From positions 1 through 64,000 of the forward strand of contig PLZF01000047.1 of assembly GCA_003152015.1 (NCBI GenBank): a DNA stretch of 64,000 nucleotides, given 5' to 3'. Of the stretch, positions 42,585-61,381 are shown in pieces (positions within the stretch are counted from its first letter, which is position 1; every line of letters starts with the position of its first letter). The position numbers were made by a program, and so were the translations under genes. The notes beneath the pieces are model-generated. The model saw nothing but the letters and a program-made list of their open reading frames with translations, did not search any database and was not told where the DNA came from. Source of the DNA: Acidimicrobiaceae bacterium (GTDB taxonomy: Bacteria > Actinomycetota > Acidimicrobiia > Acidimicrobiales > RAAP-2).

Positions 42585-44471
42585 CTAGTGGCAGTGGCCA
42601 GGTGACGGGGGGACGTCGAGAGCGGGGTTGGCATCGAAGAAGCCCACGGGGACGAGGTGGAACCCGCAGTACTCCACCGGCATGACCGGCCAGTCCTCCG
42701 GGCGGGGGATATGGGTGACACCAAACGTGTGCCAGGCGACGATGTCGGTACCGGTGAGCGGTCGGTCGGCGGCCGTCCAGGCCGGTAATCCGTCGCCACC
42801 GGGATGCTGGTTGGGATAGTCGCCGGCAGCCCGGCGTTCGCTGGGATCGAACGGGGTGACCCAGAGGTTGTGGCGGGCGAAGCCGGCCCGTTGCCCGACG
42901 CTGGATTCGGGGTGGGCGAAGAGAGTGGGCGTGGAGCCCGGGACCAGCTTGTAGGCGACGGGTTCGCCCAGGCCGTTGCGGACCTCGGGGTTGATGAACT
43001 TCCAGAAGCGGCTGGCCGCCGGGTCGACGTTTCGCCGGGCGGCCAGTTCGGAGTCGAGTCGGGTGGCCACGGGGATGAAGGCGTTGGCCCACGGGTTGGC
43101 TTCTCCGACCGACAGCGCTTCGGTGGAGATCTCGTACGCCTCGTTGACGGTTCCGTCCACCTCGAAGTCGAGGCGCGCACAGAAGAGGTGTTGGTGTACG
43201 GGAGCGCCAAGCCCCGGGGCCACCACTGTCGCATAGGGGGTGAGCTCGTCCGGGTTGAGGGCCTGGGTGGAGAGGATACCCGTCAACTTGACCTCGAATT
43301 GGATGGTCCCGTCGAGGTAGAAGTACCAATAGAAGCCGTACTCGTAGTTGCCCACGGTGGCGATGGAGGACACCACCAGTCGTCGGGACCGCCTCACCTC
43401 AGTGCGTCCCCCGTGCAGATCCTGGTGTTTCCACAGGATCCCGTAGTCCTCCTCGTGGATGCAGATGGCGTTCTCCACGGAATACGGCCTTCCCTGCTCA
43501 TTGGCCAGGGTGGCGTCGAGGTAGGAGATCACTCCCAGGCAGTCACAGCCCAAGGTGAGGGAATTGGCCATCCGGCCCAGTCCCCACTCGCCGACATCGA
43601 AGGCGTTCTTCCAACCGTGCACGGGTCCGGGATCACCGTAGGGGACCACCATCTCGGTGATGGAGGCCCGGTGCAGAATCGGTCGGAGTCGGCCACCGTC
43701 GTCATAGCCGACCGAGTGCAGCACCAGCCCGTCGAGGGGATCCATCGACACCCGCAATGCCCATCGTTGCCAGCGGACCAAGTTGATGTCGATGGTGAAG
43801 CTGGCTCCCTCGGGTTGGATGATGTCCAGGGGAAGCAGGTCGGTACGCAGTGGTTGGTTGTCTTCGGGGTAGTAGCTGCCGGTTGCGGTCGGGAGTGGGA
43901 CGACTCCGTAGTCGAGAACTTCGAGGACCTCACCGCGAGCCGCGTCAACGGTGGCCACCACCCCTTCGATCGGGCGGGCATAGCCATTGTCGGTCGGGCT
44001 CTCCCGGTAGTAGGACAGGCATCGGGCAATACGCCGGTCCTGTTCGATGTCACGACCGAAATTGCCGGTGGGCCACGGGTCGATCTGCACCTTGTCGAAG
44101 TCGGTGATGCCCCGTCGTCGTATGGCCTGTTGCCAGGCGGGGTCCTCCTTGAGGGCGACGATGGAGCGGAGGGACTCCTCGAACAGGAGGGCGGGGCGCA
44201 CGCCTGACCGGACTTCCCACGAGACGATGTCCTCCGCCGGAAGGACGACAATGGCCTCGACGACAGTGCTCTCGGGCCCGGGCACGATCACCAGGCGAAC
44301 CCTGCGCTCGATCGGATCACCCGGCCGGTACGAGGACAGGGCCTCTTTGGAAGGACCGTCGAGGGTGATGGTGGCGAAGCGGGCGGCCTCGTCGAGCCGG
44401 CCGGTGGCCCGCACCGTCGTTACCGCCCTACGGATCTCGTCGGGGGTGAGGGGTTCGAGCGGGTGGGTCAC
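42585..44471 (-). CDS. Copper amine oxidase
   Basis: A 628-residue quinoprotein oxidising primary amines to aldehydes with H2O2 and ammonia. The topaquinone precursor is Tyr376 in TVGNYEYG (N-Y-E/D), the base is Asp280 in PYGDPG as in the Arthrobacter enzyme, and copper ligands are the two His in VHQHLF and one in HTFGVTHIPRPEDWP. Length is normal for bacterial forms without the N-terminal D1 domain. No signal peptide. It follows the TetR gene by 22 bases and is probably under its control. Confidence 0.9.
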   Translation of the reverse strand: MTHPLEPLTPDEIRRAVTTVRATGRLDEAARFATITLDGPSKEALSSYRPGDPIERRVRLVIVPGPESTVVEAIVVLPAEDIVSWEVRSGVRPALLFEESLRSIVALKEDPAWQQAIRRRGITDFDKVQIDPWPTGNFGRDIEQDRRIARCLSYYRESPTDNGYARPIEGVVATVDAARGEVLEVLDYGVVPLPTATGSYYPEDNQPLRTDLLPLDIIQPEGASFTIDINLVRWQRWALRVSMDPLDGLVLHSVGYDDGGRLRPILHRASITEMVVPYGDPGPVHGWKNAFDVGEWGLGRMANSLTLGCDCLGVISYLDATLANEQGRPYSVENAICIHEEDYGILWKHQDLHGGRTEVRRSRRLVVSSIATVGNYEYGFYWYFYLDGTIQFEVKLTGILSTQALNPDELTPYATVVAPGLGAPVHQHLFCARLDFEVDGTVNEAYEISTEALSVGEANPWANAFIPVATRLDSELAARRNVDPAASRFWKFINPEVRNGLGEPVAYKLVPGSTPTLFAHPESSVGQRAGFARHNLWVTPFDPSERRAAGDYPNQHPGGDGLPAWTAADRPLTGTDIVAWHTFGVTHIPRPEDWPVMPVEYCGFHLVPVGFFDANPALDVPPSPGHCH

Positions 44472-44493: not shown

Positions 44494-45165
44494 TCAATCC
44501 CCTCGGCCCTTGGTGACAGTGGGAGTCAGGCCCGCGGTGCGATCACCGGTGCCGAGAGACTCGACGAGATGGTCGACCACCGCCAGGGTGGCTCCCCGTT
44601 TGCCGGTGGTCAGCACGTACATGGTGGCCTCGGTGAGAGCACCGAACAACACCCGGGCCATCGCATCAGGGTCGAGTGCGACGATCTCACCGCGGGCCAT
44701 GCCACCGGTCAGGACCGCTCGCAGTAACGCCACCGCATCTTGGCCGTCGGCCACGGTGCCGACGCCGAGCTCGGGGATCGTCCAGGCATCGCGCAGGAAG
44801 AACTGTGCCTCACCCAGGTTGTCGAGGGTGTTGAGGAACACCTCCAGGGCCCGACGGATACTGGTCACGGTGTCAGCGTCGGGATCGAGCGCGGCCAGGC
44901 CCTCGCGGGTGAGCCGCTCATACAGTTCGTGTTGGAGGTCACGTCCGATGTCGTCCTTGTCGGTGAACCAGTAGTAGACAGCCCCTTTGGTCACTCCGGC
45001 TGCACTGGCGATGTCCTCGATGCTCACCGCGTGGTAGCCGCGGCTGGAGAACTGGCTGAGGGCAACGGCGAGAATGCGCTCTCGGGTCTCTTGGCCACGG
45101 GGTTGGCGACGACTCACGAGGCGCCGGTTTCCCTCGGTTGGATCCCCACTGCCTGTTCCCTCCAC
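44494..45165 (-). CDS. TetR-family transcriptional repressor
   Basis: A TetR regulator of up to 223 residues: HTH region RERILAVALSQFSSRGYHAVSIEDIASAAGVTKGAVYYWFTDKDD, then a variable ligand domain. GTG 45165 is given; a GTG 17 codons in (VSRRQPRG) is an alternative. A palindrome with a repeated half-site at 45175-45204 lies immediately upstream, so it is probably autoregulated and controls the amine oxidase behind it. The SRPBCC gene upstream on the same strand may be in the same regulon. Confidence 0.87.
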   Translation of the reverse strand: MEGTGSGDPTEGNRRLVSRRQPRGQETRERILAVALSQFSSRGYHAVSIEDIASAAGVTKGAVYYWFTDKDDIGRDLQHELYERLTREGLAALDPDADTVTSIRRALEVFLNTLDNLGEAQFFLRDAWTIPELGVGTVADGQDAVALLRAVLTGGMARGEIVALDPDAMARVLFGALTEATMYVLTTGKRGATLAVVDHLVESLGTGDRTAGLTPTVTKGRGD

Positions 45166-45174
45166 ATTGCTCGG

Positions 45175-45204
45175 ATCATACGTTGCGTATGTAAATCATA
45201 CGTT
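45175..45204. promoter_or_regulatory. TetR operator with palindrome and repeated half-site
   Basis: CATACG-TTG-CGTATG (45177-45191) is a perfect interrupted palindrome; ATCATACGTT at 45175-45184 recurs at 45195-45204, exactly 20 bases on. The block is AT-rich and ends ten bases before the TetR start. The arrangement suggests binding of two TetR dimers. Seen in sequence; assignment to this TetR is inferred from position. Confidence 0.7.
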
Positions 45205-45240
45205 CCATCAGGGTACGACGTCGAACCCCACCGGACCGGT

Positions 45241-45732
45241 TCAGGAGATCGAGGGGGTCCGGGTGCGGGCTTCGAGGAGTTCCGCCATCCTGTCGAGCTC
45301 GTCGCCGATCTGCTCGGTGCCGGTGGCAAGCAACTGCTGGTCGACTGAGGAGGGAATGGCGTCGGGCACCAGGAGGGTGAGGGTGATCGTCGCCACGCAG
45401 TTGGCCGTGCCGGGGGCGCCATCTTCATCCGGCGCTCCGGGCAATACAGTGAATTCCTCCTCCGCCGGCAGTGCGCCACCGAGTTCGATTGCCACCAGTT
45501 CAGCCGGAACCGACCGGATGACCCGTAGATCGACCCGATGAGATCCGCCTTCGATGATCAGGTCGAACCGGTAGAGGGCCCCGGTTCCGTCGGGTCCACT
45601 CTCGGACACCAGTTCGATCTGGCGAACGCTCGGGTTGTACTCGGGCAGATGGAGGAAATCGAGCCGGTAAGCCCATATGTCGTGGGAGGAAGCGGCAATG
45701 TGGCGATCGGCTCGGGTGGACAGCTTGCGCAT
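45241..45732 (-). CDS. SRPBCC-family protein
   Basis: A 163-residue START/polyketide-cyclase-like protein (RADRHIAASSHDIWAYRLDF, LPEYNPSVRQIELVSE, SVDQQLLATGTEQIGDELDRMAELLEAR). It likely binds a hydrophobic ligand; in steroid and polyketide pathways such proteins act as cyclases or carriers. It is divergent from the acyl-CoA synthetase at 45819 (86 bases) and upstream of TetR on the same strand. Confidence 0.7.
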   Translation of the reverse strand: MRKLSTRADRHIAASSHDIWAYRLDFLHLPEYNPSVRQIELVSESGPDGTGALYRFDLIIEGGSHRVDLRVIRSVPAELVAIELGGALPAEEEFTVLPGAPDEDGAPGTANCVATITLTLLVPDAIPSSVDQQLLATGTEQIGDELDRMAELLEARTRTPSIS

Positions 45733-45818
45733 GAGACGCCTTTCGGATCCGGTTGGCTAGATGTTTACACGCGCGCACATTCGGTGCCGAAGAAGCCGAA
45801 GAAGTAGCGTCGCCGACC

Positions 45819-47339: not shown

Positions 47340-47481
47340 GCCGTCGGCCATCCGCTCTCCGGTGTGGACATACCGAAAGCACACGGCTTCATACTGGCGG
47401 AATGTCCTCCATACGGATAGAATGTTTGGATCCGTTGGGGTGTGCCTGGATCACCTGGGACGGGACACCCGAGGGGGGACG

Positions 47482-49081: not shown

Positions 49082-51301
49082 ATGCCTATTGCCTTTTCCG
49101 AAGAGCACGAGGCACTGGGTCAGACGGTGCGCCGGTGGCTCGACACCCACTGCGCTCCTTCTGTCCCACGGGCACTGTTGGATGCTGAGGATGAGGAGCT
49201 CCAATCGGCATGGAAGGACTTTGCCTCACAGGGCTGGCTGGGGATCCATATCCCGGAGGAATGGGGTGGTCAGGGATACGGTCTCTTCGAGTTGGCGGTG
49301 ATACTCGAGGAGACCGGACGGTCGCTTCTTCCCGGCCCCCTTCTCCCCACCGTGGTGGTCTCCACCGCAGTGGCCGAGGCGGGCGACGGGACTCAAGCCC
49401 GCTCCCTGCTGCCGCCCCTGGTGGACGGGAGCGTGGCCGCGGCGGTCTACCTCGGTCAATCCCATCTCGATATCGTCCGGCGAGGCGACGATGGGGCCAT
49501 CGACGTCACCGGCGTGCTTCGACCCGTGCTCGGTGCCGCCACTGCCTCGGTGGTGCTGGTCCCGGCCCGGGATGGAGACGACCCGGTGATCTGGTGCCTG
49601 ATGGATGTGGGCCCTTCGGCTGATCAGGTGCAGGTGCAGGCTCTGGCCAGCCTCGACCCGACCCGTCGGGCGGGCAGTCTCGAGGCGCAGGCTGTGACCG
49701 TCGGCGCTGAACGGCAGTTCCCCTCCCTCACCATGGCGCGAGTACGGCAGGTGGCTCTGTCCCTGGCGGCGGCCGAGCACGCCGGGGGAGCCCGGTGGTG
49801 CCTCGAGACGGCTTCTGAGTATGCCAAGGTTCGCGTTCAGTTCGGGCGCCCGATCGGACAGTTCCAGGCGGTGAAGCACAAGCTGGCCAACATGCTGGTC
49901 ACGGTGGAGCAGATCACCGCGGTGGCGTGGGATGCGGTGCTGGCGGTGGCTGCCGGTGAATCGGTGGAGGCGGAGCTGGCCGCCGCCACCGCCGGCGCCA
50001 TTGTCTTCGATGGGTACGCCGACAACGCCAAGGACTGCGTGCAGCTGCTGGGGGGGATCGGGTTCACCTGGGAACACGACGTGCATCTCCACCTGAAACG
50101 GGCCGTCGCGACCCGACAGCTTTTCGGCGAGTCCGATGTCTTCCGACAGGAGGTGGCCGTCCTGGCTCGGGGAGGGGCCCGGCGTTCCCTGGCCACCGAC
50201 CTGCCCGACGGGGCTGAACAGGTGCGTGCCGAGTTGGCGCCGATCATCGAGGAGCTGAAATCGCTCGATGGCAAGGACCGGCGCCGGCGGATGGTGGAGG
50301 CCGGCCTGGTGGCTCCGCACTGGCCGAGTCCGTGGGGGCGGGATGCCACCGCAGTGGAACAACTCGTGATCGAGGAGGAGCTCGGCGCTGCCGGTATCGT
50401 CCGCCCACATATCGGTGTCGGGGCGTGGGCCCTCCCGGCGATCATCGCCCATGGTTCAGATCAGCAGTGTGAGCGGTGGGTACTCCCGACCCTGCTTGGT
50501 GAACTGACCTGGTGCCAGTTGTTTTCGGAGCCGGAAGCCGGTTCCGACCTCGCCAGTCTGACCACCCGGGCCGAACGGGTGGAGGGGGGATGGCGCCTCA
50601 CGGGTCAAAAGGTGTGGACGTCGATGGCCCACGAGGCGCAATGGTCCATCTGCCTGGCCCGGACCGACCCATCAGTGCCCAAACACCAGGGCATCACCTA
50701 CTTCATTGTCGACATGCACGCTGCCGGGGTGGACGTTCGGCCCTTGCGCGAGCTCACCGGTGACGCCATGTTCAACGAGGTATTCCTCGATAACGTCTTC
50801 GTTCCCGACGATTGCGTGATCGGGGACGAGGGCCAAGGTTGGGAGATCGCCCGGGTGACACTGGCCAACGAGCGGGTGTCGATCTCGTCGGGATCGACAT
50901 TCGGGGTCGGGGCCGAGGCATTGCTCCATCTGGCTGAACGACGGGACGGACAGTTGACGCCCGGGTTGGTGATGAGGCTCGGTGCGGTGTTGGCCGAGGC
51001 ACAATCACTCAGGCTGATGGGCCACCGCTCCACCCTCCGGTCGATATCGGGAGCCGAGCCCGGGCCCGGGACCAGTGTTCGCAAGCTCCTGGGTGCCGAA
51101 CATGAACAGCGGGTTCAGGAGCTGGGACTGGCGGTATTGGGCCCCGAAGGCTCCACCATGGAAGGCAGCGCCAAAAGGTGGGCGCACGGGTTTCTGGTCA
51201 CCCGCTGTCTCACCATCGCCGGTGGCACCAGCGAGATCCAGCGGAACGTCATCGCCGAGCGGCTCCTGGGTCTTCCCCGGGATCCCGAACCGGGGTCGTG
51301 A
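49082..51301 (+). CDS. Fused two-domain acyl-CoA dehydrogenase (FadE34-like)
   Basis: A 739-residue protein made of two acyl-CoA dehydrogenase units in tandem. The first (about 1-365) ends LLGGIGFTWEHDVHLHLKRA like a beta chain; the second (about 375-739) has WCQLFSEPEAGSDLASLTTRAE and ends ITIAGGTSEIQRNVIAERLLGLPRD like a catalytic alpha chain. Mycobacterial FadE34 (ChsE3), acting on steroid side chains with a long tail, has this same fused design at similar length. Its context with P450, ferredoxin and acyl-CoA synthetase supports a sterol-like substrate. Confidence 0.85.
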   Translation: MPIAFSEEHEALGQTVRRWLDTHCAPSVPRALLDAEDEELQSAWKDFASQGWLGIHIPEEWGGQGYGLFELAVILEETGRSLLPGPLLPTVVVSTAVAEAGDGTQARSLLPPLVDGSVAAAVYLGQSHLDIVRRGDDGAIDVTGVLRPVLGAATASVVLVPARDGDDPVIWCLMDVGPSADQVQVQALASLDPTRRAGSLEAQAVTVGAERQFPSLTMARVRQVALSLAAAEHAGGARWCLETASEYAKVRVQFGRPIGQFQAVKHKLANMLVTVEQITAVAWDAVLAVAAGESVEAELAAATAGAIVFDGYADNAKDCVQLLGGIGFTWEHDVHLHLKRAVATRQLFGESDVFRQEVAVLARGGARRSLATDLPDGAEQVRAELAPIIEELKSLDGKDRRRRMVEAGLVAPHWPSPWGRDATAVEQLVIEEELGAAGIVRPHIGVGAWALPAIIAHGSDQQCERWVLPTLLGELTWCQLFSEPEAGSDLASLTTRAERVEGGWRLTGQKVWTSMAHEAQWSICLARTDPSVPKHQGITYFIVDMHAAGVDVRPLRELTGDAMFNEVFLDNVFVPDDCVIGDEGQGWEIARVTLANERVSISSGSTFGVGAEALLHLAERRDGQLTPGLVMRLGAVLAEAQSLRLMGHRSTLRSISGAEPGPGTSVRKLLGAEHEQRVQELGLAVLGPEGSTMEGSAKRWAHGFLVTRCLTIAGGTSEIQRNVIAERLLGLPRDPEPGS

Positions 51302-60601: not shown

Positions 60602-61381
60602 GAGTCGCGCATCGCGCTGGTAACGGGAGCGTCGTCGGGGATCGGGGCCGCCACCGCCCGGGCGTTGGCGGCACGAGGGGTCACTGTGGGAATCGTCGCC
60701 CGGAGGTCCGAACGACTGGCCGAGGTTTTGGGGGCGTGCCGACTCCACGCGCCCAATTCGCGGTCATGGGTGGCCGATCTCTCCGATCCGGCGGGAGCCG
60801 CGGCTCTGGCGGAAGAAGCGTGGGAGACCTTCGGCCGCCTGGATGTCCTGGTCAACAACGCCGGCATCCCCATGCGCCGGCCGGTGACCCGCATCTCACT
60901 CGAGGAGGTGGAGCGGGTCATGCGGGTCAACTACCTGTCGCCGGTGGCGATGACCCTGGCCGTGCTCCCGCGGATGGTCGAACGGGGGGCGGGCACCATT
61001 GTCAATGTGTCGAGCCTGGGGGGCAGGTTGGGCATCACCACTGAAGCCGCGTACTCGGCGTCGAAGTTCGCCCTCTGTGGGTTCAGCGAGGCAATGGCCG
61101 CCGACCTCGACGGTACCGGGGTCAATGTGCGGCTGGTATTGCCGGGCGCCATCGACACCGAGATCTGGGACCAACCGGGAAACGATCCTGCCTTCTATAC
61201 CGGGCCCTTGACCCCGGCCGACGACGTGGCCGACGGAATTGTCGATGCCATCGACAGCGATCATTTTGAGCATTACGTACCCGACATGAAGGCGGTGATC
61301 GAACTCAAGACCGCCGACTTCGACAGCTTCTTGACCGGCATGCTGGCCATGGCGAAACAACCCGAGGCCGGCTCGACGTGA
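60593..61381 (+). CDS. Short-chain dehydrogenase/reductase
   Basis: A 262-residue classical SDR: TGASSGIGAATARAL, NNAGIP, Ser in VSSLGG and catalytic YSASK. The C-terminal part (TEIWDQPGNDPAFYTGP) is typical of fatty-alcohol or steroid-type SDRs. Start ATG 60593 is inside a perfect palindrome; a start at 60575 has no family residues. It lies 51 bases after the GMC gene and 22 before the zinc dehydrogenase, suggesting one transcript with two consecutive alcohol-oxidation steps. Confidence 0.85.
   Translation: MKHESRIALVTGASSGIGAATARALAARGVTVGIVARRSERLAEVLGACRLHAPNSRSWVADLSDPAGAAALAEEAWETFGRLDVLVNNAGIPMRRPVTRISLEEVERVMRVNYLSPVAMTLAVLPRMVERGAGTIVNVSSLGGRLGITTEAAYSASKFALCGFSEAMAADLDGTGVNVRLVLPGAIDTEIWDQPGNDPAFYTGPLTPADDVADGIVDAIDSDHFEHYVPDMKAVIELKTADFDSFLTGMLAMAKQPEAGST

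Follow-up and report, generated by a model that had tools for sequence, protein, structure and literature searches.

A tandem palindrome conserved with a TetR-family regulator and predicted to be its operator, upstream of a copper amine oxidase in Acidimicrobiia

Genome comparison showed that the 15-bp palindrome CATACGnnnCGTATG and a TetR-family regulator travel together, with a weaker copy of the palindrome 20 bp away at most promoters. Because a near-identical site, usually paired, precedes the regulator's relatives in many families, the palindrome was read as the operator of this TetR, and it is very probably bound by the adjacent protein. We consider it highly likely that the pair is a tandem operator at which the TetR would act as an autorepressor and bind as two dimers, with a primary amine, or a product derived from this amine, as the releasing ligand.

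RESULTS

The operator and its genes

Direct reading of the window (the whole stretch of 64,000 nucleotides analysed) confirmed the two features on which the original prediction was built, a perfect interrupted palindrome, designated O1 (Table 1), and a half-site repeat: ATCATACGTT is found at 45175-45184 and the same letters occur again at 45195-45204, 20 bases on. The second, degenerate site was designated O2, and its score was 7/12 and 8/12 in the sister genomes L009 and L010, respectively, indicating partial retention. The full operator, O1 and O2 together, is 35 bp long and reaches 45211, beyond the previously described interval 45175-45204. The TATGAT hexamer of a promoter-like match (45195-45200) bridges the bases that separate O1 from O2 and runs into the margin of O2, and the transcription start would fall under O1.

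Table 1. Positions of the predicted operator, the neighbouring genes and the probable second target in the window
Feature	Position	Strand	Description
Copper-containing primary-amine oxidase	42585-44471	minus	Best solved matches: amine oxidase / phenylethylamine oxidase
TetR-family regulator (TetR_N + TetR_C_41)	44494-45117	minus	Likely start GTG 45117; longest ORF from 45165
O1, perfect palindrome CATACG-TTG-CGTATG (= CATACGTTGCGTATG)	45177-45191	.	Arms 6, spacer 3; conserved before orthologues
Promoter-like match TCGACG-18-TATGAT	45195-45224	minus	Based on the consensus alone; one match against 0.1 expected
O2, degenerate site CATACGTTCCATCAG	45197-45211	.	9/12 consensus positions, exactly 20 bp from O1
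SRPBCC / Polyketide_cyc2 protein	45241-45732	minus	Ends 29 bp from O2
Tandem pair CATACTGGCGGAATG-5-CATACGGATAGAATG	47390-47424	.	9/12 and 10/12, 20 bp apart
Cytochrome P450	47482-48741	plus	Start taken as ATG 47482, 419 aa; probable second target

On the minus strand the order is the SRPBCC protein, the operator, the TetR and the copper amine oxidase. The oxidase follows the TetR directly on the same strand after a gap of 22 bp, which confirms the predicted position of the operator upstream of it. The SRPBCC protein is the upstream neighbour of the operator and is not clearly controlled by it. The other neighbours in the window were an acyl-CoA ligase, the P450, acyl-CoA dehydrogenases and a CoA transferase; positions 49082-51301 hold a single ORF of 739 aa with two tandem acyl-CoA dehydrogenase units.

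The start of the TetR gene is likelier to be GTG 45117 than GTG 45165, since orthologues align from MARRxPRG at the former and the latter is not kept in L009, where it is GCA (it is retained in L010). GTG 45117 is also preceded by a GAGGG, although the distance of 13 nt is rather long for a ribosome site. The distance from the palindrome to GTG 45117 is 59 nt, so the predicted distance of ten bases before the TetR start holds for the longest ORF, from GTG 45165, and not for the likelier start.

The N-terminus of the regulator matched TetR_N (PF00440; E 1.9e-15, 56.8 bits against a threshold of 24) and the C-terminus matched TetR_C_41 (PF21351; 34.8 bits against a threshold of 27). Its AlphaFold model had a mean pLDDT of 87 and nine helices, and the best PDB match was EthR2. 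With the NCBIfam model of the ScbR / gamma-butyrolactone receptors it scored 66.9 bits, below the cut-off of 150. When its own genome was searched with the orthologue profile, the TetR was found with an E value of 4e-98 and the next protein with 5e-18. The catalytic domain of the amine oxidase matched PF01179 (E 4e-156), and the protein scored 891 bits with NF008559 against a cut-off of 651; among solved structures it is nearest to phenylethylamine oxidases. It contains VGNYEYG, and the topaquinone motif of copper amine oxidases is Asn-Tyr-Glu/Asp.

Conservation of the site with TetR orthologues

Orthologues of the TetR were collected from 150 genomes of the family, from genome contigs and, by means of an alignment, from 395 genomes of the class Acidimicrobiia. 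The TetR was found in 6 of the 150 and in 15 of the 395 genomes (own genome included in both), and the contig search gave at least 13 TetR loci, among them at least eight over most of the protein. After contigs equal in length were merged, the set comprised at least 22 TetR genes in at least 21 genomes and at least 10 families.

The site or a close variant was present at 22 of the 22 orthologue loci collected, either before the TetR gene or before an SDR gene heading the TetR operon; a palindromic operator-like site near the regulator's own gene is what is expected of the TetR family. The core TACGnnnCGTA was intact at 19 loci and slightly off at two (CGTACGGGAAGTATG in L058, 10/12, and CATACGGAGAGTATG in L074, 11/12), and the remaining locus, L073, which had the weakest TetR profile score, carried the symmetric variant CATACCTGCGGTATG (palindrome form CATACCtgcGGTATG). 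Three of the loci (G200, G365 and G311) were first found through the palindrome scan and were also used in the alignment for the class search; without them the count is 19/19. L070 was counted for the core and not for the spacing, as its contig ends inside the site. The prediction that the palindrome is the operator of this TetR is supported by these counts; absence of the motif upstream of orthologues, which had been named as the outcome that would speak against it, was looked for, and the motif was present at every locus collected.

The core occurred 23 times in 287,773 bases from 23 sources, and all 23 matches were at promoters of this module (TetR, SDR, aminotransferase or amine oxidase), compared to a mean of 0.425 and a maximum of 2 in 40 shuffles. 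One locus, the aminotransferase of G296 (L067), had been fetched because of its palindrome. In a scan of the class, perfect palindromes were found in 17 of 296 genomes and the reversed control in 8. They were present in 6 of 15 TetR-bearing genomes compared to 11 of 281 others (Fisher p 5e-5), a test that assumes that the set of 395 genomes includes the 296; all 15 TetR genomes were confirmed in the 296. A 6+3+6 palindrome is by itself unremarkable, because such palindromes of any sequence are common both in the window (40) and in shuffles (30), and to that extent the site could be a chance inverted repeat or belong to another regulator. However, its conservation with this TetR at all 22 loci and the co-occurrence of the two in genomes make this explanation exceedingly improbable. 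The exact motif was absent from 300 of 300 shuffled windows.

Lys44 of the TetR was invariant in 13 of 13 aligned regulators and was aligned, by manual count, with Arg48 of Rv0078. According to the available part of the published account, the guanines with which Arg48 interacts matter for binding (PMC6016246), and because of this alignment Lys44 may read the CG steps of the operator.

The alphaproteobacterial loci L018-L020 were dropped as orthologues, because the similarity was only 29-36% and covered just a part of the protein, and the orthologue counts exclude L017-L021. At L018-L020, palindromes CATACA-TGTATG around CATACAnnnTGTATG precede a weakly similar TetR-like gene, and an acyl-CoA-ligase-like match is found close by; this operator is a separate, similar-looking one.

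The 20-bp tandem spacing

The spacing was examined in 19 rows, obtained from 24 site rows by removing the near-duplicates L009, L010, L066b, L072 and L072b; for L073, the variant pattern of that locus was used in the scoring. The mean score of a second site at 20 bp was 7.47/12, compared to 4.63 or less at the other spacings from 15 to 45 bp. In shuffled flanks the score was at most 4.79, but this null shuffles single bases, and other spacings and random positions are the better controls. When one row was kept per genus and promoter, which also removed L065 (4/12), L068 (8/12) and L069 (5/12) as second genus members, two of them contrary rows, the mean was 7.81 (16 rows), compared to 4.62 or less at other spacings up to 60 bp. 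Scores of 7/12 or more at 20 bp were found in 15 of 19 rows and in 14 of 16 rows, compared to 2% of random positions. Without the window, L071 and L073, the mean was still 7.31 (13 rows). In a separate scan that also covered offsets below 15 bp, an offset of 9 bp in either direction ranked after 20 bp (5.95 and 5.64, compared to 6.05 at -20), which is explained by the resemblance of the two half-sites to each other. The spacing of 20 bp is about two helical turns.

The most regular pairs were found in G311 (L071), where both members of the pair, at the 20-bp spacing, are perfect palindromes, and in G267 (L073), with the symmetric variant pair CGTACCTCTGGTACC-N5-CATACCTGCGGTATG. As the second site recurs at plus or minus 20 bp, these two pairs included, the predicted binding by two dimers gains comparative support. 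It could instead be that O1 is the sole working operator, occupied either by a single dimer or, in the manner of Rv0078, by an overlapping pair, and that the partner at 20 bp is a relic or a weak, non-cooperative helper. O2 has only 9/12 positions, and fewer in the sister genomes, and a good partner at 20 bp is missing in four rows (L062, 6/12; L065, 4/12; L069, 5/12; and L075, 4/12), all of which would fit such an arrangement. In contrast, the recurrence of the partner in both row sets, with no other spacing from 15 to 60 bp standing out, argues for two sites, and a single working operator appears rather improbable.

The regulon in the own genome and the P450 promoter

A genome scan for the motif, which had been proposed as the way to define the regulon, recovered this promoter and, probably, that of the P450; a wide regulon was not seen with the patterns searched. 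The own assembly (3.57 Mb, 94% complete) contained one perfect copy of CATACGNNNCGTATG. Allowing one mismatch added one further place, and the reversed control gave an equal number. For the strong motif, a wide regulon in the own genome was rejected on the basis of this one perfect place and of 15 places with the core compared to 37 for the reversed control; of the 15, only that in the window scored more than 10/12 with a partner above 5/12 at 20 bp. Individual candidates also failed. The one-mismatch place (contig C26; L002, L077) is situated 3' of an SDR-like match, with a tandem score below 18/24, and an SDR relative in the window at 60611 (49%) has only a 9/12 site approximately 380 bases upstream. 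For the SDR relative on contig C6 of the own genome (65%), none of the nearby sites scored above 9/12.

When the window was scored for tandem pairs at 20 bp, the TetR promoter came first (21/24) and a pair 57 nt before the likely P450 start came second (19/24), compared to a maximum of 18/24 in 300 shuffled windows. In 754,483 bases of loci, overlaps included, no pair scoring 19 or more lay outside this module and the P450 promoter. In a search of the own genome with a pattern made from both pairs, only these two, 2.2 kb apart, were found with two mismatches or fewer, and the remaining eight places scored 17 or less; this uniqueness is partly by design, since the pattern was written after both window pairs had been seen. 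In the sister genomes L009 and L010 the P450 pair differs by one spacer base only, but conservation of the flanks is high as well. The pair would fall inside the longest P450 ORF, which starts at GTG 47362, but in L010 the frame of that stretch is shifted by one insertion and a later deletion. Taken together, these results make the P450 a probable second target of the regulator.

Partner genes of the regulator

Counting only genes that resemble the query set, an SDR gene lay beside the TetR at 13 of 22 loci and an aminotransferase was adjacent at 13 of 22. The two aminotransferases scanned were of class III with an SCP2 domain. That at L016:2302-4080, a class III aminotransferase fused to the SCP2 lipid-binding domain, represents the regulator's most frequent partner. 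In the genus of the window (the window, L009 and L010) a copper amine oxidase stands in the place of the aminotransferase. No close relative of the aminotransferase-SCP2 protein was found in the own genome, where the best match (36%) aligned to residue 463 of 592, and the longest-reaching of four matches ended at 476. G296 has both an aminotransferase and an amine oxidase, and both genes are preceded by a perfect operator whose partner scores 9/12, the aminotransferase being on another contig under its own operator. The aminotransferase matches L130 (G296:C19:8049-9800) and L142 (G260:C25:4843-6261) each contain one TGA stop according to the search table.

A search for the amine oxidase gave 48 matches in 46 genomes, from which 30 loci were fetched. 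The operator was found at two of these loci, those of the window and of G296, and not at the other 28; among the fetched loci, the amine oxidase was without the site in four of six TetR-bearing genomes (G343, G378, G331 and G200). The amine oxidase is not the regulator's usual target. The core was likewise absent from the fetched flanks of all four aminotransferase loci (of 16) that came from genomes without a TetR match (G292, G456, G345 and G263). In these comparisons the operator tracks the regulator, not the enzyme.

In G292, an assembly of 85% completeness that yielded no TetR orthologue, a pair scoring 18/24 lies at L139:408-442 before a unit resembling SDR and aminotransferase-SCP2; the regulator may be missing from this assembly.

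DISCUSSION

In the mechanism that we propose, two TetR dimers would lie side by side on O1 and O2 and cover the promoter, so that TATGAT would be hidden and the TetR-amine oxidase operon repressed; the weaker pair 2.2 kb away would allow the P450 to be repressed too. An accumulating primary amine, or the aldehyde or acid derived from it, would enter the C-terminal pocket of the regulator, the ligand-bound dimers would leave the DNA and the amine-removing enzyme would be made. As the TetR would also repress its own gene, the switch would stay balanced. We infer repression rather than activation from the habit of the family and from the overlap with one promoter-like match.

An amine or aldehyde is a plausible ligand, and the proposal is strengthened by the fact that both linked enzymes, the class III aminotransferase and the copper amine oxidase, act on amines. 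The main rival to it is an acyl-CoA or fatty-acid-like ligand, with the same operator and repressor serving the surrounding acyl-CoA cluster. The acyl-CoA-related genes and the P450 nearby, the SCP2 lipid-binding domain on both scanned aminotransferases and the presence of FadR-type regulators among the fold matches of the TetR are consistent with such a ligand; the site, however, was not found before the acyl-CoA ligase at 45753, and among the query-set-like genes the commonest neighbours across the class are the SDR and the aminotransferase. An acyl-CoA ligand is regarded as unlikely, and the amine or its aldehyde is preferred.

The arrangement can be compared with known systems. Classical TetR shows autorepression beside its target. 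Its operator, tetO, is described in the available part of one report as 15 bp long and bound by a single dimer (PMC6016246); the system of the window differs from it in sequence and ligand and has two sites 20 bp apart. Rv0078 (EthR2 / LoaR) of Mycobacterium tuberculosis was the best solved match of the TetR both by sequence (approximately 25% identity) and by the fold of the predicted model. The same part of that report proposes that Rv0078 uses a single promoter operator to repress both its own gene and a divergent target, and describes two dimers that bind a 21-bp operator on opposite faces of the DNA with a stagger of 7 bp, cooperatively in the authors' reading (PMC6016246). Rv0078 thus has one 21-bp operator and the target Rv0077c, whereas here there are two separate 15-bp sites 20 bp apart. 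An offset of 7 bp was not among the eight best here, although a second dimer bound in such a staggered position would not necessarily be marked by another copy of the motif. The TetR fold is also shared with the gamma-butyrolactone receptors CprB and ArpA of Streptomyces, which, as far as the accessible part of the source goes, have a role in antibiotic and differentiation pathways; CprB binds as two dimers on opposite sides of one 22-bp element, ACATACGGGACGCCCCGTTTAT, which also begins with ACATACG, like the site in the window (PMC4150764).

A search of the literature for the regulator, the motif, TetR regulators of amine oxidases and an aminotransferase-SCP2 regulon, with subscription papers mostly outside its reach, found no description among the papers listed. 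The switch is of an ordinary, common kind, and the regulon is new.

Tentatively, and short of calling it probable, we suggest a regulon extending across the class, with the regulator and the 20-bp tandem operator held constant and the amine-removing enzyme exchanged: an aminotransferase-SCP2 protein in most families, a copper amine oxidase and a P450 in the genus of the window, and both amine enzymes in G296. If the enzymes are exchanged in this way, the defining element of the switch would be the ligand and not the enzyme, and this ligand would be a primary amine, perhaps a lipophilic one, that the enzymes share. A palindrome noticed by eye has become a testable regulon with a 35-bp operator in the little-studied actinobacterial class Acidimicrobiia. 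Primary amines and their aldehydes are the class of ligand to screen, and the exchange of enzymes under a fixed operator would be a clue to what the regulator senses.
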